Source: an uncultured Flavobacteriaceae bacterium (GTDB lineage Bacteria; Bacteroidota; Bacteroidia; Flavobacteriales; Flavobacteriaceae). From it: 64,000 nt of DNA. The translations under genes and the position numbers were made by a program. Below are positions 26,726 to 53,278 of the stretch, piece after piece. Position 1 is the first letter of the stretch, and every line of letters starts with the position of its first letter. The DNA lies in NCBI GenBank assembly GCA_905479095.1, contig CAJQLD010000006.1, forward strand, positions 1-64,000. The letters run 5' to 3'. The notes below the pieces were generated by a model. The model saw nothing but the letters and a program-made list of their open reading frames with translations. It was not told where the DNA came from and made no database searches.

Positions 26726-26741
26726 CGTTCCACGTGGAACA
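26726..26741. promoter_or_regulatory. parS: parS-like ParB binding site (CGTTCCACGTGGAACA)
   Basis: 14-bp perfect palindrome GTTCCACGTGGAAC in intergenic DNA; matches the parS consensus type. Confidence 0.85.
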
Positions 26742-26752
26742 ATTGCAGTTAA

Positions 26753-28624
26753 TTAACGTCCCATATAGACTAACAAAACAGAGATGTCATTAGGAGACAC
26801 ACCGCTTATTCTAGAGGCTTGGGCAACGGTTACGGGTTGAATTTTCTTCAGCTTTTCACGTGCTTCATAACTCATGGATTTGATTTGAGAATAGTCATAA
26901 CCCACGGGGATTTTAACATATTCTAAACGTGTTAATTTGTCTGCATTGTTTTTTTCTTTAGCAATATAACCGGAATATTTAACCTGAATCTCCGTTTGTT
27001 CCATGACTTCGTTATCTAAATCATGGTCACGAATGTAAGATTCTACAGGTTCAAATTTACGCACATCTTCAATGCCGATATTTGGTCTGGAAAATATTTT
27101 AAATAGTTTATCGGATTGACGAATAGGAGCCGATTGCTTACTCTCTAGTATAGGGTTTGCGTCTTCGGGTTTGATACTTTGTGTTTTAAAAAACCCAACA
27201 AAAGCCTCCGCTTTGGAAAGTTTTTCTTCCATCCGTCTTAATCGTTTTTCACTTGAAATTCCTAGGTCATATCCTTTCGGCGTCAAACGAATGTCTGCAT
27301 TATCTTGCCTAAGAAGCGTTCTGTATTCAGCTCGTGACGTAAACATTCGGTAAGGCTCTTCCGTTCCTTTCGTAATTAAGTCATCAATCAAAACACCAAT
27401 ATAAGCTTCATTTCTTTTCAATATAAAAGACTCCTTTTCTTGAACTTTAAGACTCGCATTGATCCCAGCCATTAAACCTTGAGAGGCGGCCTCTTCATAC
27501 CCTGTAGTGCCGTTAATTTGTCCTGCAAAATAAAGCCCATTTATGATCTTTGTTTCCAAAGAATGAGTAAGTTGTGTAGGGGGAAAGTAATCATATTCAA
27601 TTGCGTAACCTGGTCTAAAAAACTTAACGTTCTCAAAACCTTTGACTGCACTTAAGGCCTTAAATTGAACATCTTCAGGAAGCGAGGTGGAAAACCCATT
27701 TACATAGTATTCAACGGTATTCCAACCTTCTGGCTCAACAAAAAGTTGATGGCTGTCCTTGTCTGCAAAGCGGTTAATTTTATCTTCAATGGAAGGACAG
27801 TAACGAGGCCCTAAACTTTGAATACGACCATTGAACATCGGAGATCGGTCAAAGCCTTCTCGTAATAAATTATGCACATCTAAACTCGTATGTGCCATAT
27901 GACAAGAACGCTGCGTTGTGAGTGACTTGGTCATATCAGAATATGAGAACTTTTCGGGGACTGCATCACCAGGTTGTTCGGACATTTTAGAAAAATCTAA
28001 GGAGCGACCATCAACTCTTGGAGGTGTACCAGTTTTCATTCGGCCAGACTCAAAACCTAAATCGATAAGTTGCTCAGTAATGCCTGTGGCAGCCTTTTCG
28101 CCTGCACGACCACCACCAAAATTTTTATCACCTATATGAATGAGTCCATTTAAAAAAGTTCCATTTGTCAATACAACAGACTTGCCTCGAATCTCAAGAC
28201 CGAGTGAGGTTCTAACACCCTTAACCACATCGCCTTCGACGACGAGACCAGTCACCATTTCTTGATAAAAATCCAAGTTTTTGGTTTGCTCTAGCATCAA
28301 CCGCCAATCTTCAGCAAAACGCATGCGATCACTTTGTACTCGTGGACTCCACATCGCTGGTCCTTTAGATTTGTTAAGCATTTTGAATTGAATTGCGGAA
28401 GTGTCACTTACGATTCCACTATAACCTCCAAGCGCATCAATTTCACGAACAATTTGCCCTTTAGCAATCCCACCCATTGCTGGGTTACAAGACATTTGAG
28501 CAATGTTTTGAAGGTTCATCGTTACAAGGAGCGTGCTACTGCCCATGTTGGCAGCAGCTGCGGCAGCTTCGCTTCCAGCGTGACCGCCTCCAACTACAAT
28601 TACATCGTAAATTTTATTAAACAT
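26753..28624 (-). CDS. mnmG: tRNA uridine-5-carboxymethylaminomethyl(34) synthesis enzyme MnmG (GidA)
   Basis: 623 aa; 'YDVIVVGGGHAGSEAAAAAANMGSSTLLVTMN', 'CNPAMGGIAKGQIVREIDALGG', 'FAGQINGTTGYEEAASQG'. Confidence 0.99.
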   Translation of the reverse strand: MFNKIYDVIVVGGGHAGSEAAAAAANMGSSTLLVTMNLQNIAQMSCNPAMGGIAKGQIVREIDALGGYSGIVSDTSAIQFKMLNKSKGPAMWSPRVQSDRMRFAEDWRLMLEQTKNLDFYQEMVTGLVVEGDVVKGVRTSLGLEIRGKSVVLTNGTFLNGLIHIGDKNFGGGRAGEKAATGITEQLIDLGFESGRMKTGTPPRVDGRSLDFSKMSEQPGDAVPEKFSYSDMTKSLTTQRSCHMAHTSLDVHNLLREGFDRSPMFNGRIQSLGPRYCPSIEDKINRFADKDSHQLFVEPEGWNTVEYYVNGFSTSLPEDVQFKALSAVKGFENVKFFRPGYAIEYDYFPPTQLTHSLETKIINGLYFAGQINGTTGYEEAASQGLMAGINASLKVQEKESFILKRNEAYIGVLIDDLITKGTEEPYRMFTSRAEYRTLLRQDNADIRLTPKGYDLGISSEKRLRRMEEKLSKAEAFVGFFKTQSIKPEDANPILESKQSAPIRQSDKLFKIFSRPNIGIEDVRKFEPVESYIRDHDLDNEVMEQTEIQVKYSGYIAKEKNNADKLTRLEYVKIPVGYDYSQIKSMSYEAREKLKKIQPVTVAQASRISGVSPNDISVLLVYMGR

Positions 28625-28640: not shown

Positions 28641-28656
28641 TGTTCCACGTGGAACA
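28641..28656. promoter_or_regulatory. parS: parS-like ParB binding site (TGTTCCACGTGGAACA)
   Basis: Perfect 16-bp palindrome in intergenic DNA upstream of mnmG. Confidence 0.92.
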
Positions 28657-32100: not shown

Positions 32101-32511
32101 TAAACTCAGGCTTTTAGACTTCTGTTCGATGCTGGCTAAAAGAAATTCAGTATGTTCGGATTGTTGCTTCAACTGGAGCACGTTTAGAAGTTTGTCCTTA
32201 ACTTCTGGAAAATGTTCGCCGACAATCTTGGAGGCTGTTTCATTGTTAATCCCTTTTTGAATCTTAAAATATTTTGCCAATGGAATGAAAATCAACCTAT
32301 AAAAAAGAACGACTTCAAAACCAATAACACACCAAAACAGGAGGCTTCTTCCAAAAGGGTTTAACCAAAAAAAGTGCTCAATTATCAACGTAAACAGCGC
32401 ATAAAGCAAACCGATAGCAAAAAACAGCAACAGCCCCTTCAGTAAAGCGCTGATATAATAGCGTCTGATAAATTGTTCTAATTTTTGTTCTATGTTGTGA
32501 AACCCGTCCAG
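29101..32511 (-). CDS. DUF4175 family large membrane/coiled-coil protein; N-terminus probably extends past the ORF-track start at 32430
   Basis: ORF track 29101..32430 (TTG start). In-frame upstream codons encode 'LDGFHNIEQKLEQFIRRYYISALLKGL', continuing the family-like N-terminus; candidate CTG start at 32511; in-frame stop just upstream. Confidence 0.75.
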   Translation of the reverse strand: MDGFHNIEQKLEQFIRRYYISALLKGLLLFFAIGLLYALFTLIIEHFFWLNPFGRSLLFWCVIGFEVVLFYRLIFIPLAKYFKIQKGINNETASKIVGEHFPEVKDKLLNVLQLKQQSEHTEFLLASIEQKSKSLSLVPFKSAVNLKDNLKYLKYAVVPFLIVFMFFIFGKQAVFTDSLKRVVNYQTTYYPPAPFAFFVMNTPLEAIENTSFTLVVKTVGSVVPEEVQIVYNDESYILNQTQLGVFEHEFRQLNAAVDFNLIAGDVVSKPYHLEVINTPVLLRFDLHLDYPRYTGKLDEIIANNGNAIIPEGTKLRWELITKATESVVFAYKDKSLSFESNNQKFQFNKQLFESLSYTIQTSNAQLKNYENLAFAIQTIKDQSPTIKVEMKQDSTFQESLYFYGQISDDYGVNSLKLHYYPIEDPTNSKSLSLPADAQTFQEFTYAFPSNLELIEDTAYALYFEVFDNDPFHQNKSARSRVFNYNSKSENTLEELQLQEQNELSTAFQKALNTLSKQDKALKELSQNQKEAPQLNYSDQQKLKSFLERQKNQDQILKKFNNKMKENLNQFNKSKEKDPFKEQLEKRLDAQQERLKKDEKILEELKKVTDKINKEQLAEKLDKMAKQNKNKQRSLEQLLELTKRYYVTKKAEQLQESLNKLSEVQSELSKESSEKNSKSAQDKLNDDFKDLLKQLEDLKKDNEELSKPLSLPDDPNLEKSIQKDQYKASEDLGEKEKSSSPQDKKSQLSKAQKSQSKAAQKMLQMGQKMSSQMGSGSSEQMNEDVEMLRQILDNLLLFSFEQEALMDRFKTSPSNNNDYAQRLVKQSNLREHFEHVDDSLFALSLRQPKISETVNSEITDVFFNIDKSLDLLSENDTRKGVSAQQFVVSSTNKLADLLSNTLNSMQMEMQLSPGEGEGEMQLPDIIMSQEALNKEMEKQLNENGEKPNGEKEGSEKGEGDSNKDSGKEGDSGSKPSEDGSPGGEGQGKSGKPSGFGGDSEGDNGELFEIFKKQQELRNALQDLLDKKGIGQSAQNLLKSMEKIEQNLINQGVTSKSLQDMKALKHQLLKFEKAALKQGEDTKRVSDTSKADRFQSPDPSPEMIKQYFNTTEILNRQSLPLRQEFKQKVQEYFKNKND

Positions 32512-32794
32512 TTGATCCTCTATTTAAAAAAATAAAATTACAATAATAATCCATATTCATGGTGGCTTTGTAATAATATGTGAAGAAAAACAAGGAATGG
32601 ATGAAAGACGCCATTGCAATGAGTGCTTGATTTAAAAAAAGAATGAAAAACTTCATTTTCTTTGGATACAGCTAATTTTTTATATAAGTTTAACTTTGAA
32701 TTTGACCCAAGTCTAAATCTTCATTAAGCAATTTAACCGAAGCTTAAGAAGAACTGAGCTAAAAAACAACTCTTTTCTTGATAAATTTTAGACA

Positions 32795-32833
32795 CTAGTA
32801 TGCCGCACTAGCGCGAGCATCTTTTGCTCGTGC
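32795..32833. repeat. GC-rich hairpin pair upstream of recQ
   Basis: CTAGT-n7-ACTAG (32795-32811) and GCGCGAGCA-tcttt-TGCTCGTGC (32811-32833). Confidence 0.75.
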
Positions 32834-32918
32834 CCAGCAAGAGAAATAAACGTAAAAAATAAATTTTGAGTAGAAATTATAATAAGATAACAAAGGTTGG
32901 AGATTGGTTAACGACACA

Positions 32919-32942
32919 CAAGCGTGACGCTTGCGCAAGCGT
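32919..32942. repeat. Overlapping inverted repeats with perfect palindrome ACGCTTGCGCAAGCGT
   Basis: CAAGCGTGACGCTTGCGCAAGCGT: CAAGCG/CGCTTG hairpin overlapping the 16-bp palindrome 32927-32942. Confidence 0.8.
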
Positions 32943-33001
32943 GGAGTTACCCACCATTGCAGAAAACGCTAACGAATAAAAAAATGAAGTAAAAGTAGAG
33001 A

Positions 33002-50133: not shown

Positions 50134-50565
50134 TTAACAAGGTTGAATTTTATTAATTCTATTTTGATGACGTCCCCCTTCAAATTCTGTATTTAAAAAT
50201 GTTTCAACCATTTCTAAAACAGCGTCTATTTCGGTAAAACGAGCAGGAATGCAAAGTATATTTGCATTATTATGTAGCCGTATTAACGACACAATTTCAT
50301 TGTTCCAACATATACCCGCTCTTATGCTTGAATATTTATTTGCGGTCATTGCAACACCATTAGCGCTGCCACATATTAAAATTCCAAAGGTTGCTTTTTT
50401 ACTTTCGACATCTTGAGCTACAGGATGTACAAAATCTGGGTAATCGACACTCGAATCCGAATCTGTTCCATAATTTACAACTTGAATATTTCTAGATTTT
50501 AAAAATTCTACAATTTTGAATTTATAATCTGTTCCTGCGTGATCGTTTCCGATAGATATGTTCAT
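50134..50565 (-). CDS. rpiB: Ribose 5-phosphate isomerase B
   Basis: 143 aa; 'ISIGNDHAGTDYKFKIVEFL', 'GILICGSANGVAMTANKYSSIRAGICWN'. Confidence 0.96.
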   Translation of the reverse strand: MNISIGNDHAGTDYKFKIVEFLKSRNIQVVNYGTDSDSSVDYPDFVHPVAQDVESKKATFGILICGSANGVAMTANKYSSIRAGICWNNEIVSLIRLHNNANILCIPARFTEIDAVLEMVETFLNTEFEGGRHQNRINKIQPC

Positions 50566-51080
50566 TTGTTAAAACTTAAATTATTAGTAAATTTACAAAA
50601 AAGAGTTTTATATAATTTAAATTGTTCATAGCCTTTTTAATTAGTTGTTAATAATTAATGAACGAATATGAAAACTAAATTTTTTAATATCAATTAATTT
50701 TATCAACCGGCTGTATGAAATTATAAAACTAATTAAGTTATCTTTTTTAGTTGTTTACTTATGAATATTGAAAGGGTGCTTGTAAACAAAAAAAACTAAA
50801 TTACTTATAAGCTATTCTATGTGAGTAGAGGTTATCAACAATGTATAATAGGTATAACTAAATATTTATAAATCAAATAATTAACTAAATAATTAGTTGT
50901 TAAGTAATTGTTTATAATATGTATATAAGTGATAAAACAAAGGAATACAAAAAAACTTATAGTACCTATTCACAGACTATAATAAACACCATTAGTTTTT
51001 AAATAATTTAATAAAAAATTAATATGATTATATTAAATGTGGATAAAGTTAAAAAGAGATGACTTTTGGTTGAATTAAAG
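50566..51080. other. Candidate chromosomal replication origin (oriC-like AT-rich intergenic region)
   Basis: About 540 bp non-coding gap between divergent rpiB and rnr; TGTGGATAA (51039-51047, exact DnaA box on minus), TTATCAACA (50833-50841), CTATTCACA (50967-50975); repeated AACTAAAT and TTAGTTGTT words. Confidence 0.45.
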
Positions 51081-51109
51081 TAGTAGCTTTGCTTAATTAG
51101 ATACCTTAA

Positions 51110-53278
51110 ATGAAACGAAAAAAGAATAACAAGCAATCTATTGAAAATTATAGTCAAAGTATATTAACTATTCTTAAAGCAGATAGAAAAAAAACATTCA
51201 ATCATAAGCAAATAGCAGCACAACTTGGTGTAAATGATGCGAGTAGCCGTAACCAGATTATAAAAAATCTTCACAAACTTGCAGGTCAAAAAGAAATAGA
51301 AGAAATAGAACGTGGTAAATTTCAAATAGTCACCTCAACAGAATACTATATTGGCACTGTAGATATGGCCTCTAGAGGCAATGCATATATTGTATGTGAT
51401 GATTTAGAAGACGATGTTTTTATAGCAGCTAATAAGATGCAAAAAGCACTTCATGGGGATACCGTTGAGTTATATGTTTATAACCGAAAAAAGAATGGAA
51501 AACAAGAAGGAGAAATAACTCAAATAATTAAACGATCACGAACAGACTATGTTGGAATTGTACAATTAAATGAAAAGTTTGCATTTGTAGTTCCGGATAG
51601 TAATAAGATGCCCGTTGATGTTTTTGTTCCACTTTCTAAAACTTTAAAAGCTGAAGATGGCGATAAAGTATTGGTAAGTTTAGAAGAATGGCCTGATAAA
51701 GCAGAGTGCCCTAATGGAAAAATAATTAAAATCTTAGGAAAACCAGGCGATCATAATACAGAAATTCATTCCATATTAGCTGAATATGGATTGCCTTATG
51801 AATTTCCAACTGAAGTTGAAACGTTTGCAAACAATATAGACACCTCTATCACAGAAGGCGAAATATCTAAACGTCGCGACATGCGATCAACACTCACCTT
51901 TACAATAGATCCAAAGGATGCAAAAGATTTTGATGATGCCTTATCATTTAAACAACTTCCTAATGGCAACTTCGAAATAGGAATTCATATAGCCGATGTT
52001 TCTCATTACTTACAAGAGGGGACTGTTTTAGATGACGAAGCTTACGAGCGAGCAACTTCTGTTTATTTAGTTGATAGAGTCGTTCCAATGCTTCCTGAAG
52101 TATTATCTAACAATGCGTGCTCTTTACGTCCAAACGAAGAAAAATATACGTTCTCAGCAGTTTTTGAAATTAATAATAAAGCACTTATAGAAAACCAATG
52201 GTTTGGAAGAACAGTTACTTACAGTGATGCTCGTTTTGCGTATGAGGAGGCACAGCATATTATAGAAACAGAAGCTTGTGAAATTCCAGAAGAAATTTCA
52301 ATAACAGGTGAAGCTTATACTGCAGATACTGCAATTAAAGAAGCCATCTTAAAATTAGATGAACTTGCGAAAATAATGCGTCAAAAACGCATGAAAGACG
52401 GCGCTATCTCTTTTGATAAAGCAGAAGTTAAATTTAATCTTGACGAAGCGAATAACCCTGTAGGCGTGTTTTTTAAAACATCTAAAGATGCAAATAAACT
52501 AATTGAAGAGTTTATGCTATTAGCAAACAGAAAAGTATCTGAGTTTATAGGAAAACAATCCCCACAAAAAACATTTATTTATAGAACTCATGATGAACCT
52601 GATGACCAAAAATTAGCCGGTCTTCAAAGAATTGTATCTCAATTTGGCCACCAATTAAATTTTAAAAATAGAGAAACTACGACACAATCTTTAAATACTC
52701 TTCTTAAAAATGTAAAAGGGACTAAAGAACAAAATTTAGTTGATACATTGACCATTCGTTGCATGAGTAAAGCAGCCTATTCTACTAAAAACATTGGCCA
52801 TTACGGCCTTGCTTTTGATTATTACAGTCATTTTACATCGCCAATTAGAAGATACCCTGATGTTATGGCACATCGTTTGCTACAACATTATCTCGACGGA
52901 AATAAAACAACAAACGAAGGGGTTTATGAAGAAAAGTGTAAACACGCTTCTAATATGGAATATCTTGCGACAAAAGCAGAACGTGATTCTATAAAATATA
53001 TGCAAGTCAAGTACATGCAAGACCACAAAGAAGATACTTTTTTAGGAGTTATTTCTGGAGTAACCGAATGGGGAATGTATGTAGAAATTATAGAAAACAA
53101 ATGTGAGGGTATGATAAGAATTAGAGATATTAAAGGCGATTTCTATAGGTTTGATGCTGAGGAATTTGCTTTAATAGGAGAAAAAACAAAAACAAAATAC
53201 CAGTTAGGTGATGAAATTGAGGTCCGCGTCAAACAAGCCGATTTGGTTAAAAAACACTTAGACTTTAGTTTAGCTTAA
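51110..53278 (+). CDS. rnr: Ribonuclease R
   Basis: 722 aa; 'TIDPKDAKDFDDALSF', 'GIHIADVSHYL', 'HYGLAFDYYSHFTSPIRRYPDVMAHRLL', C-term S1 domain. Confidence 0.98.
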   Translation: MKRKKNNKQSIENYSQSILTILKADRKKTFNHKQIAAQLGVNDASSRNQIIKNLHKLAGQKEIEEIERGKFQIVTSTEYYIGTVDMASRGNAYIVCDDLEDDVFIAANKMQKALHGDTVELYVYNRKKNGKQEGEITQIIKRSRTDYVGIVQLNEKFAFVVPDSNKMPVDVFVPLSKTLKAEDGDKVLVSLEEWPDKAECPNGKIIKILGKPGDHNTEIHSILAEYGLPYEFPTEVETFANNIDTSITEGEISKRRDMRSTLTFTIDPKDAKDFDDALSFKQLPNGNFEIGIHIADVSHYLQEGTVLDDEAYERATSVYLVDRVVPMLPEVLSNNACSLRPNEEKYTFSAVFEINNKALIENQWFGRTVTYSDARFAYEEAQHIIETEACEIPEEISITGEAYTADTAIKEAILKLDELAKIMRQKRMKDGAISFDKAEVKFNLDEANNPVGVFFKTSKDANKLIEEFMLLANRKVSEFIGKQSPQKTFIYRTHDEPDDQKLAGLQRIVSQFGHQLNFKNRETTTQSLNTLLKNVKGTKEQNLVDTLTIRCMSKAAYSTKNIGHYGLAFDYYSHFTSPIRRYPDVMAHRLLQHYLDGNKTTNEGVYEEKCKHASNMEYLATKAERDSIKYMQVKYMQDHKEDTFLGVISGVTEWGMYVEIIENKCEGMIRIRDIKGDFYRFDAEEFALIGEKTKTKYQLGDEIEVRVKQADLVKKHLDFSLA

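Follow-up and report, generated by a model that had tools for sequence, protein, structure and literature searches.

Bacterial replication origins generally combine DnaA boxes with a DNA unwinding element, and the oriC of Escherichia coli lies between gidA (mnmG) and mioC. A DnaA-box array need not initiate replication, as datA and DARS of E. coli illustrate, and nearness to parS is not a strict requirement of an origin. A basal unwinding system (BUS) has been described that consists of a DnaA box, a spacer and DnaA-trios (PMC8287927), and in gut bacteria, Bacteroidetes included, origins have been reported near parS and not always at dnaA (PMC10197239). Within the Flavobacteriaceae, Ori-Finder 2022 has placed oriC at or adjoining mnmG in Mariniflexile litorale and Algorimicrobium (PMC11278836, PMC12843772), and dnaA does not fit the skew in the Flavobacteriaceae genome of PMC11278836. 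In the open literature we did not find the rpiB-rnr intergenic region named as an origin; automatic predictions at the site may exist.

The window that we analyzed is a 64-kb stretch of DNA from a 102-contig Flavobacteriaceae MAG, and the 544-bp rpiB-rnr intergenic region within it (50566 to 51109) is, judging from its sequence and that of its relatives, very probably oriC, an origin of chromosome replication that is unlinked to dnaA. The region is the most AT-rich among the long gaps of the window (19.3% GC) and contains no open reading frame of at least 60 aa, so that its description as an ORF-free, AT-rich gap is borne out. It is flanked by divergent genes that are both kept in relatives and whose names we carry over from the original prediction, an rpiB-like gene of the ribose-5-phosphate isomerase B family (50134 to 50565, minus strand) and an rnr-like gene for ribonuclease R (51110 to 53278, plus strand). 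An Rfam search of the window returned a single tRNA and nothing else.

Taken alone, the E. coli box statistics of the gap are a modest signal and thin evidence. When the gap is shuffled with its dinucleotide composition kept, the exact box TTATCCACA appears in 8 of 2,000 shuffles and two boxes with at most one mismatch to it in 4 of 500; sites of the latter quality show no enrichment across the whole 64-kb window (23 observed, 18.8 expected). Two repeats had also been singled out, AACTAAAT in four copies and TTAGTTGTT in three; both are present, with true starts at 50673, 50794, 50856 and 50883 and at 50641, 50747 and 50893 in place of the coordinates first given, and both look like chance. 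A fourfold 8-mer like AACTAAAT arises in 417 of 2,000 shuffles of the gap, as expected at such composition, and a functional role for either repeat is unsupported. A related repeat of the relatives' gaps, CAGTTGTTA, contains the TGTTA end of overlapping boxes.

The evidence for oriC is strong rather than thin because comparison with relatives was added. The divergent rpiB-rnr pair with its long AT-rich gap recurs throughout the Flavobacteriaceae, and rnr is 65 to 96% identical in named relatives that include Lacinutrix, Winogradskyella, Aquimarina, Flavobacterium, Zobellia and others. From a comparison set of 72 rpiB-rnr gaps (68.4 kb in total) we derived a degenerate DnaA-type box form, YTRTNMACA, which, with overlapping palindromic sites scored on both strands, is counted 424 times against 46.5 ± 8.8 in shuffles, a roughly 9-fold excess, and is present in 71 of the 72 gaps. 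Exact TTATCCACA is found 16 times in the same gaps against 0.7 in shuffles, and CTATTAACA 61 times against 1.9. The arrangement recurs as well: an inward-facing box pair at 70 to 74 bp is present in 45 of the 72, further boxes return at fixed offsets from the last box (-72 on the plus strand, about -129 and -194 on the minus strand, -205, -218 and -257 on the plus strand, and -380 to -392 on the minus strand), and the interior of the pair is a conserved A/T block that runs from the first box through nnCTATAATAAnCAnCATTTTTTTTTT and on in A/T up to the second. In many relatives the boxes at about -205 and -194, offset by 11 bp (25 such pairs; L005-L111 gaps), together make up a palindrome of 20 bp, YTATTAACANNTGTTAATAR, the full form of which is absent from the window.

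The gap in the window carries seven non-overlapping YTRTNMACA boxes over ∼430 bp where 0.44 are expected, a number reached in none of 2,000 shuffles of the gap (mean 0.44, maximum 4). The outermost is a degenerate box of the family-derived form, CTATGAACA (50623 to 50631, minus strand), followed by TTATTAACA (50646 to 50654, minus strand) at the family-conserved position -380 to -392 from the last box, TTGTAAACA (50780 to 50788, plus strand) at about -257, TTATCAACA (50832 to 50840, plus strand) at about -206 and TTATAAACA (50909 to 50917, minus strand) at -129. The inward-facing pair closes the array, with CTATTCACA on its left (50966 to 50974, plus strand, -72) and the exact box TTATCCACA on its right (51038 to 51046, minus strand, position 0). 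Three of these sites had been recognized before, together with a weaker box, TTATCAACC, and all four exist, at positions one base below those first given, as is also true of the repeats: the exact box TGTGGATAA lies at 51038 to 51046, TTATCAACA and CTATTCACA lie at the positions above and TTATCAACC at 50700 to 50708, and CTATTCACA, which had been taken for a one-mismatch box, has two mismatches to TTATCCACA. Box density in the gap is 7 per 500 bp, compared with 3 at the next-best place in the window, and when 2.76 Mb of DNA from relatives is ranked by box count per 500 bp, the top nine places all fall in the rpiB-rnr gap.

Nearest-neighbour energies put the 60-bp stability minimum of the whole 64 kb at 50978 to 51037, between the inward-facing boxes, which are 72 bp apart, and the least stable 300 bp end at the same place (50738 to 51037). 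This, together with the conserved block, suggests that the 63-bp A/T-rich stretch enclosed by the pair (50975 to 51037) acts as the unwinding element. We hypothesize that DnaA-ATP would fill the box array and that the inward-facing pair would nucleate opening of the enclosed stretch; helicase could then be loaded at the opened stretch and two forks depart in opposite directions, after which ParB at parS beside mnmG, 22 to 24 kb off, would segregate the copied origins.

We built a sequence-only model of the core, R1, which has 122 positions and was trained on family members; its E-values are rough, and its family matches are partly by construction, which does not apply to genome-wide uniqueness, sister-family matches or parS linkage. 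The match in the window spans 50934 to 51049 on the plus strand (E 7.8e-17 when the window is searched and 3.2e-15 over the genome, where it is the only strong one). Across 39 family genomes (38 single-contig genomes and the MAG), R1 finds one strong site per genome, beside rpiB, in 38 (E 1e-4 to 4e-21) and no match in the remaining one, G017, while the best match away from the element in the 39 has an E-value of 0.0076. In an order-wide sample 24 family members were matched, and sites were also found in relatives from other Flavobacteriales families (E 5e-4 to 3e-7). Of 12 genomes from these sister families, 10 keep the R1 site 356 to 426 bp from rpiB, with rnr 15 to 180 kb off or on another contig; in G202 and G255 rpiB is also on another contig, and parS remains 20 and 6 kb from the R1 site. 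In the family genomes the element lies 61 bp to 46 kb from rnr and 357 to 2085 bp from rpiB.

These distances bear on the possibility that the gap does no more than hold divergent promoters for rpiB and rnr and is AT-rich in the way of Bacteroidota promoters. The Bacteroidetes -7 promoter element is TAnnTTTG, and the flanking genes are indeed divergent, with a similar element, TAGCTTTG, starting 26 bp before rnr (51084 to 51091, plus strand); its enrichment in the rpiB-rnr gaps of the family (22 observed, 1.9 expected) suggests that it is the probable -7 element of the rnr promoter. As an account of the whole gap, however, we regard a promoter function as extremely improbable, given that gene insertions leave the array as it is, whether they separate it from rnr (by 61 bp to 46 kb) or from rpiB (by up to 2.1 kb), and that the core persists in sister families without rnr adjacent and in G202 and G255 without rpiB. 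By these comparisons the element behaves as a module and not as a promoter. In one genome, G198 (C1:2938597-2985566), 46 kb that include parS separate the element and rpiB from rnr, and the orientation is inverted; the arrangement looks like the outcome of an inversion of the rnr-mnmG segment beside the origin.

The window contains only two parS sites, the exact TGTTCCACGTGGAACA (28641 to 28656) and CGTTCCACGTGGAACA with one mismatch (26726 to 26741), and their predicted placement 22 to 24 kb from the gap proved correct. They lie 1.9 kb apart on either side of mnmG (gidA; 26753 to 28624, minus strand; TIGR00136, 840 bits). Family genomes have about two parS sites each, and nearly all of those searched share this bracketing of mnmG. 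The distance from parS to the element has a median of 18.6 kb and a maximum of 54.6 kb in all 35 family genomes with parS; the sites are to the right of the element in 33 of them and to the left only in the window and G098. Among sister-family genomes, 8 that have both on one contig place parS within ∼40 kb of the element. In G100, a genome of the same genus as the window (one contig, 2,735,158 bp), no parS was found within two mismatches, and part of the sampled G100 sequence reads N. The predicted separation from dnaA is supported throughout: dnaA is always far from the element, at 0.19 to 0.48 of the genome (median 0.37; n = 36 single-contig family genomes). It lies mostly in the terminus-side half; were dnaA placed uniformly, the median would be 0.25 and short distances would be frequent.

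Conservation of a DnaA-box array does not by itself prove initiation, and the element could instead be a noninitiating, datA- or DARS-like locus that binds DnaA to titrate or recharge it. We consider this very improbable, as the array is the only strong one of its kind per genome according to R1 and the densest in the 2.76 Mb examined, and the element contains the DNA of lowest stability, has parS nearby and coincides with the skew switch in some relatives. Inserted genes separate rnr from the element by 3.1 kb in G127 and 5.0 kb in G098, and over the 200 and 80 kb examined in these genomes the minimum of cumulative GC skew falls about 0.4 to 0.6 kb from the element. Samples taken over the G101 genome show skew that is mostly negative before and positive after about 1.64 to 1.69 Mb; the element is located at 1.646 Mb and parS ∼50 kb inside the negative-skew arm. 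Over 12 relatives the mean skew is about -0.02 to the left and +0.08 to the right, with the step at rnr; for most of them the local minimum falls either at the region edge or over 5 kb away from the element. Fourfold-site skew gives a weak step, and its orientation-balanced version is too noisy to locate the origin. Much of the relatives' skew change tracks gene orientation, which shows that skew is confounded. The skew minimum had been proposed as a check on the origin candidate, and it is inapplicable to the genus of the window, where skew is scrambled, the genome-wide GC skew of G100 being weak and disordered.

In the window itself, the GC-skew minimum and a gene-strand switch are at 32.4 to 33.0 kb and not at 51 kb. 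The switch, a sharp one from minus- to plus-strand genes, falls at 32431 to 33001 between a DUF4175 gene and recQ. An origin at mnmG/parS or at this strand switch upstream of recQ, with the rpiB-rnr gap merely nearby, would account for the local skew minimum and the switch, for the bracketing of mnmG by parS and for the mnmG-adjacent oriC given in PMC12843772 and PMC11278836 by Ori-Finder 2022. We nevertheless give such an origin very little credence. There are 0 DnaA boxes in 32431 to 33001 and at most 3 degenerate boxes per 500 bp anywhere in the window outside the rpiB-rnr gap; mnmG/parS lies ∼50 kb inside one arm in G101, G127, G048 and G056, with no skew sign change there in G101 and G127 (where covered); and in G098 parS is on the opposite side of the element, yet the skew minimum is still at the element. 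The switch in the window is, moreover, explicable by an inversion: 32431 to 33001 is probably an inversion boundary, and we infer that the 33- to 49-kb block is a recent inversion because parS is on the unusual side in the window, to the left as elsewhere only in G098 and to the right in 33 of 35 genomes.

We therefore retain the rpiB-rnr gap as the very probable oriC. In its favor are the family footprint with its fixed geometry, a single R1 site per genome, parS linkage, the least stable DNA and the densest box cluster; against it stand the skew minimum of the window at 32.4 to 33.0 kb, the scrambled skew of G100, the confounding of skew by gene orientation and the lack of an R1 match in G017. 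The original prediction of a strong origin candidate is thus supported by the conserved, spaced array in 72 relatives, the single model match per genome and the nearness of parS, and also by the skew switch at the element in some relatives. More tentatively, and with slightly less than even confidence, we propose that the element represents a distinct Flavobacteriales layout, in which degenerate YTATYAACA boxes at fixed spacing end in an inward-facing pair that encloses the unwinding element, ∼0.4 kb from rpiB in a large part of the order, and dnaA stays in the terminus-side half.

Such an element would define the origin at sequence level in a family that is large and of environmental importance, and in which published genomes start at dnaA or have the origin assigned to mnmG. 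The short model locates it in draft and metagenome assemblies, making read-depth growth rates, chromosome re-orientation, studies of replication-linked mutation and shuttle-vector design directly testable, and the boxes around the unwinding stretch offer a concrete hypothesis for how DnaA opens DNA in Bacteroidota.

An oriC is a known kind of element, and the one described here is like bacterial origins in general in its box cluster, in the very unstable A/T-rich DNA that adjoins it, in its lack of linkage to dnaA, in having mnmG within tens of kilobases and, as in many bacteria, in having parS nearby. Unlike the E. coli oriC, it has rpiB and rnr as neighbors, its boxes are mostly YTATYAACA-like and not TTATCCACA, and its least stable DNA lies between inward-facing boxes and not beside the array. 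It resembles the BUS in that boxes directly flank the A/T-rich stretch, but the canonical 3'-GAT-5' repeat of that system is not conserved in the family elements; the right box of the window is followed by a 6-bp spacer and six triplets of a loose.A. pattern, a kind of run nearly as common in shuffles, and runs of at least three trios, the number called for within 16 bp of a box in a BUS-type origin, are found in 84% of the stretches against 75% when shuffled (43 sequences), little above chance. Compared with the Flavobacteriaceae origins assigned by Ori-Finder, which name mnmG as the origin or its indicator, the box array here adjoins rpiB and can be as far as 55 kb from mnmG; like them, it is not at dnaA and belongs to the same neighborhood of tens of kilobases, with mnmG/parS at a median of 19 kb from the element.
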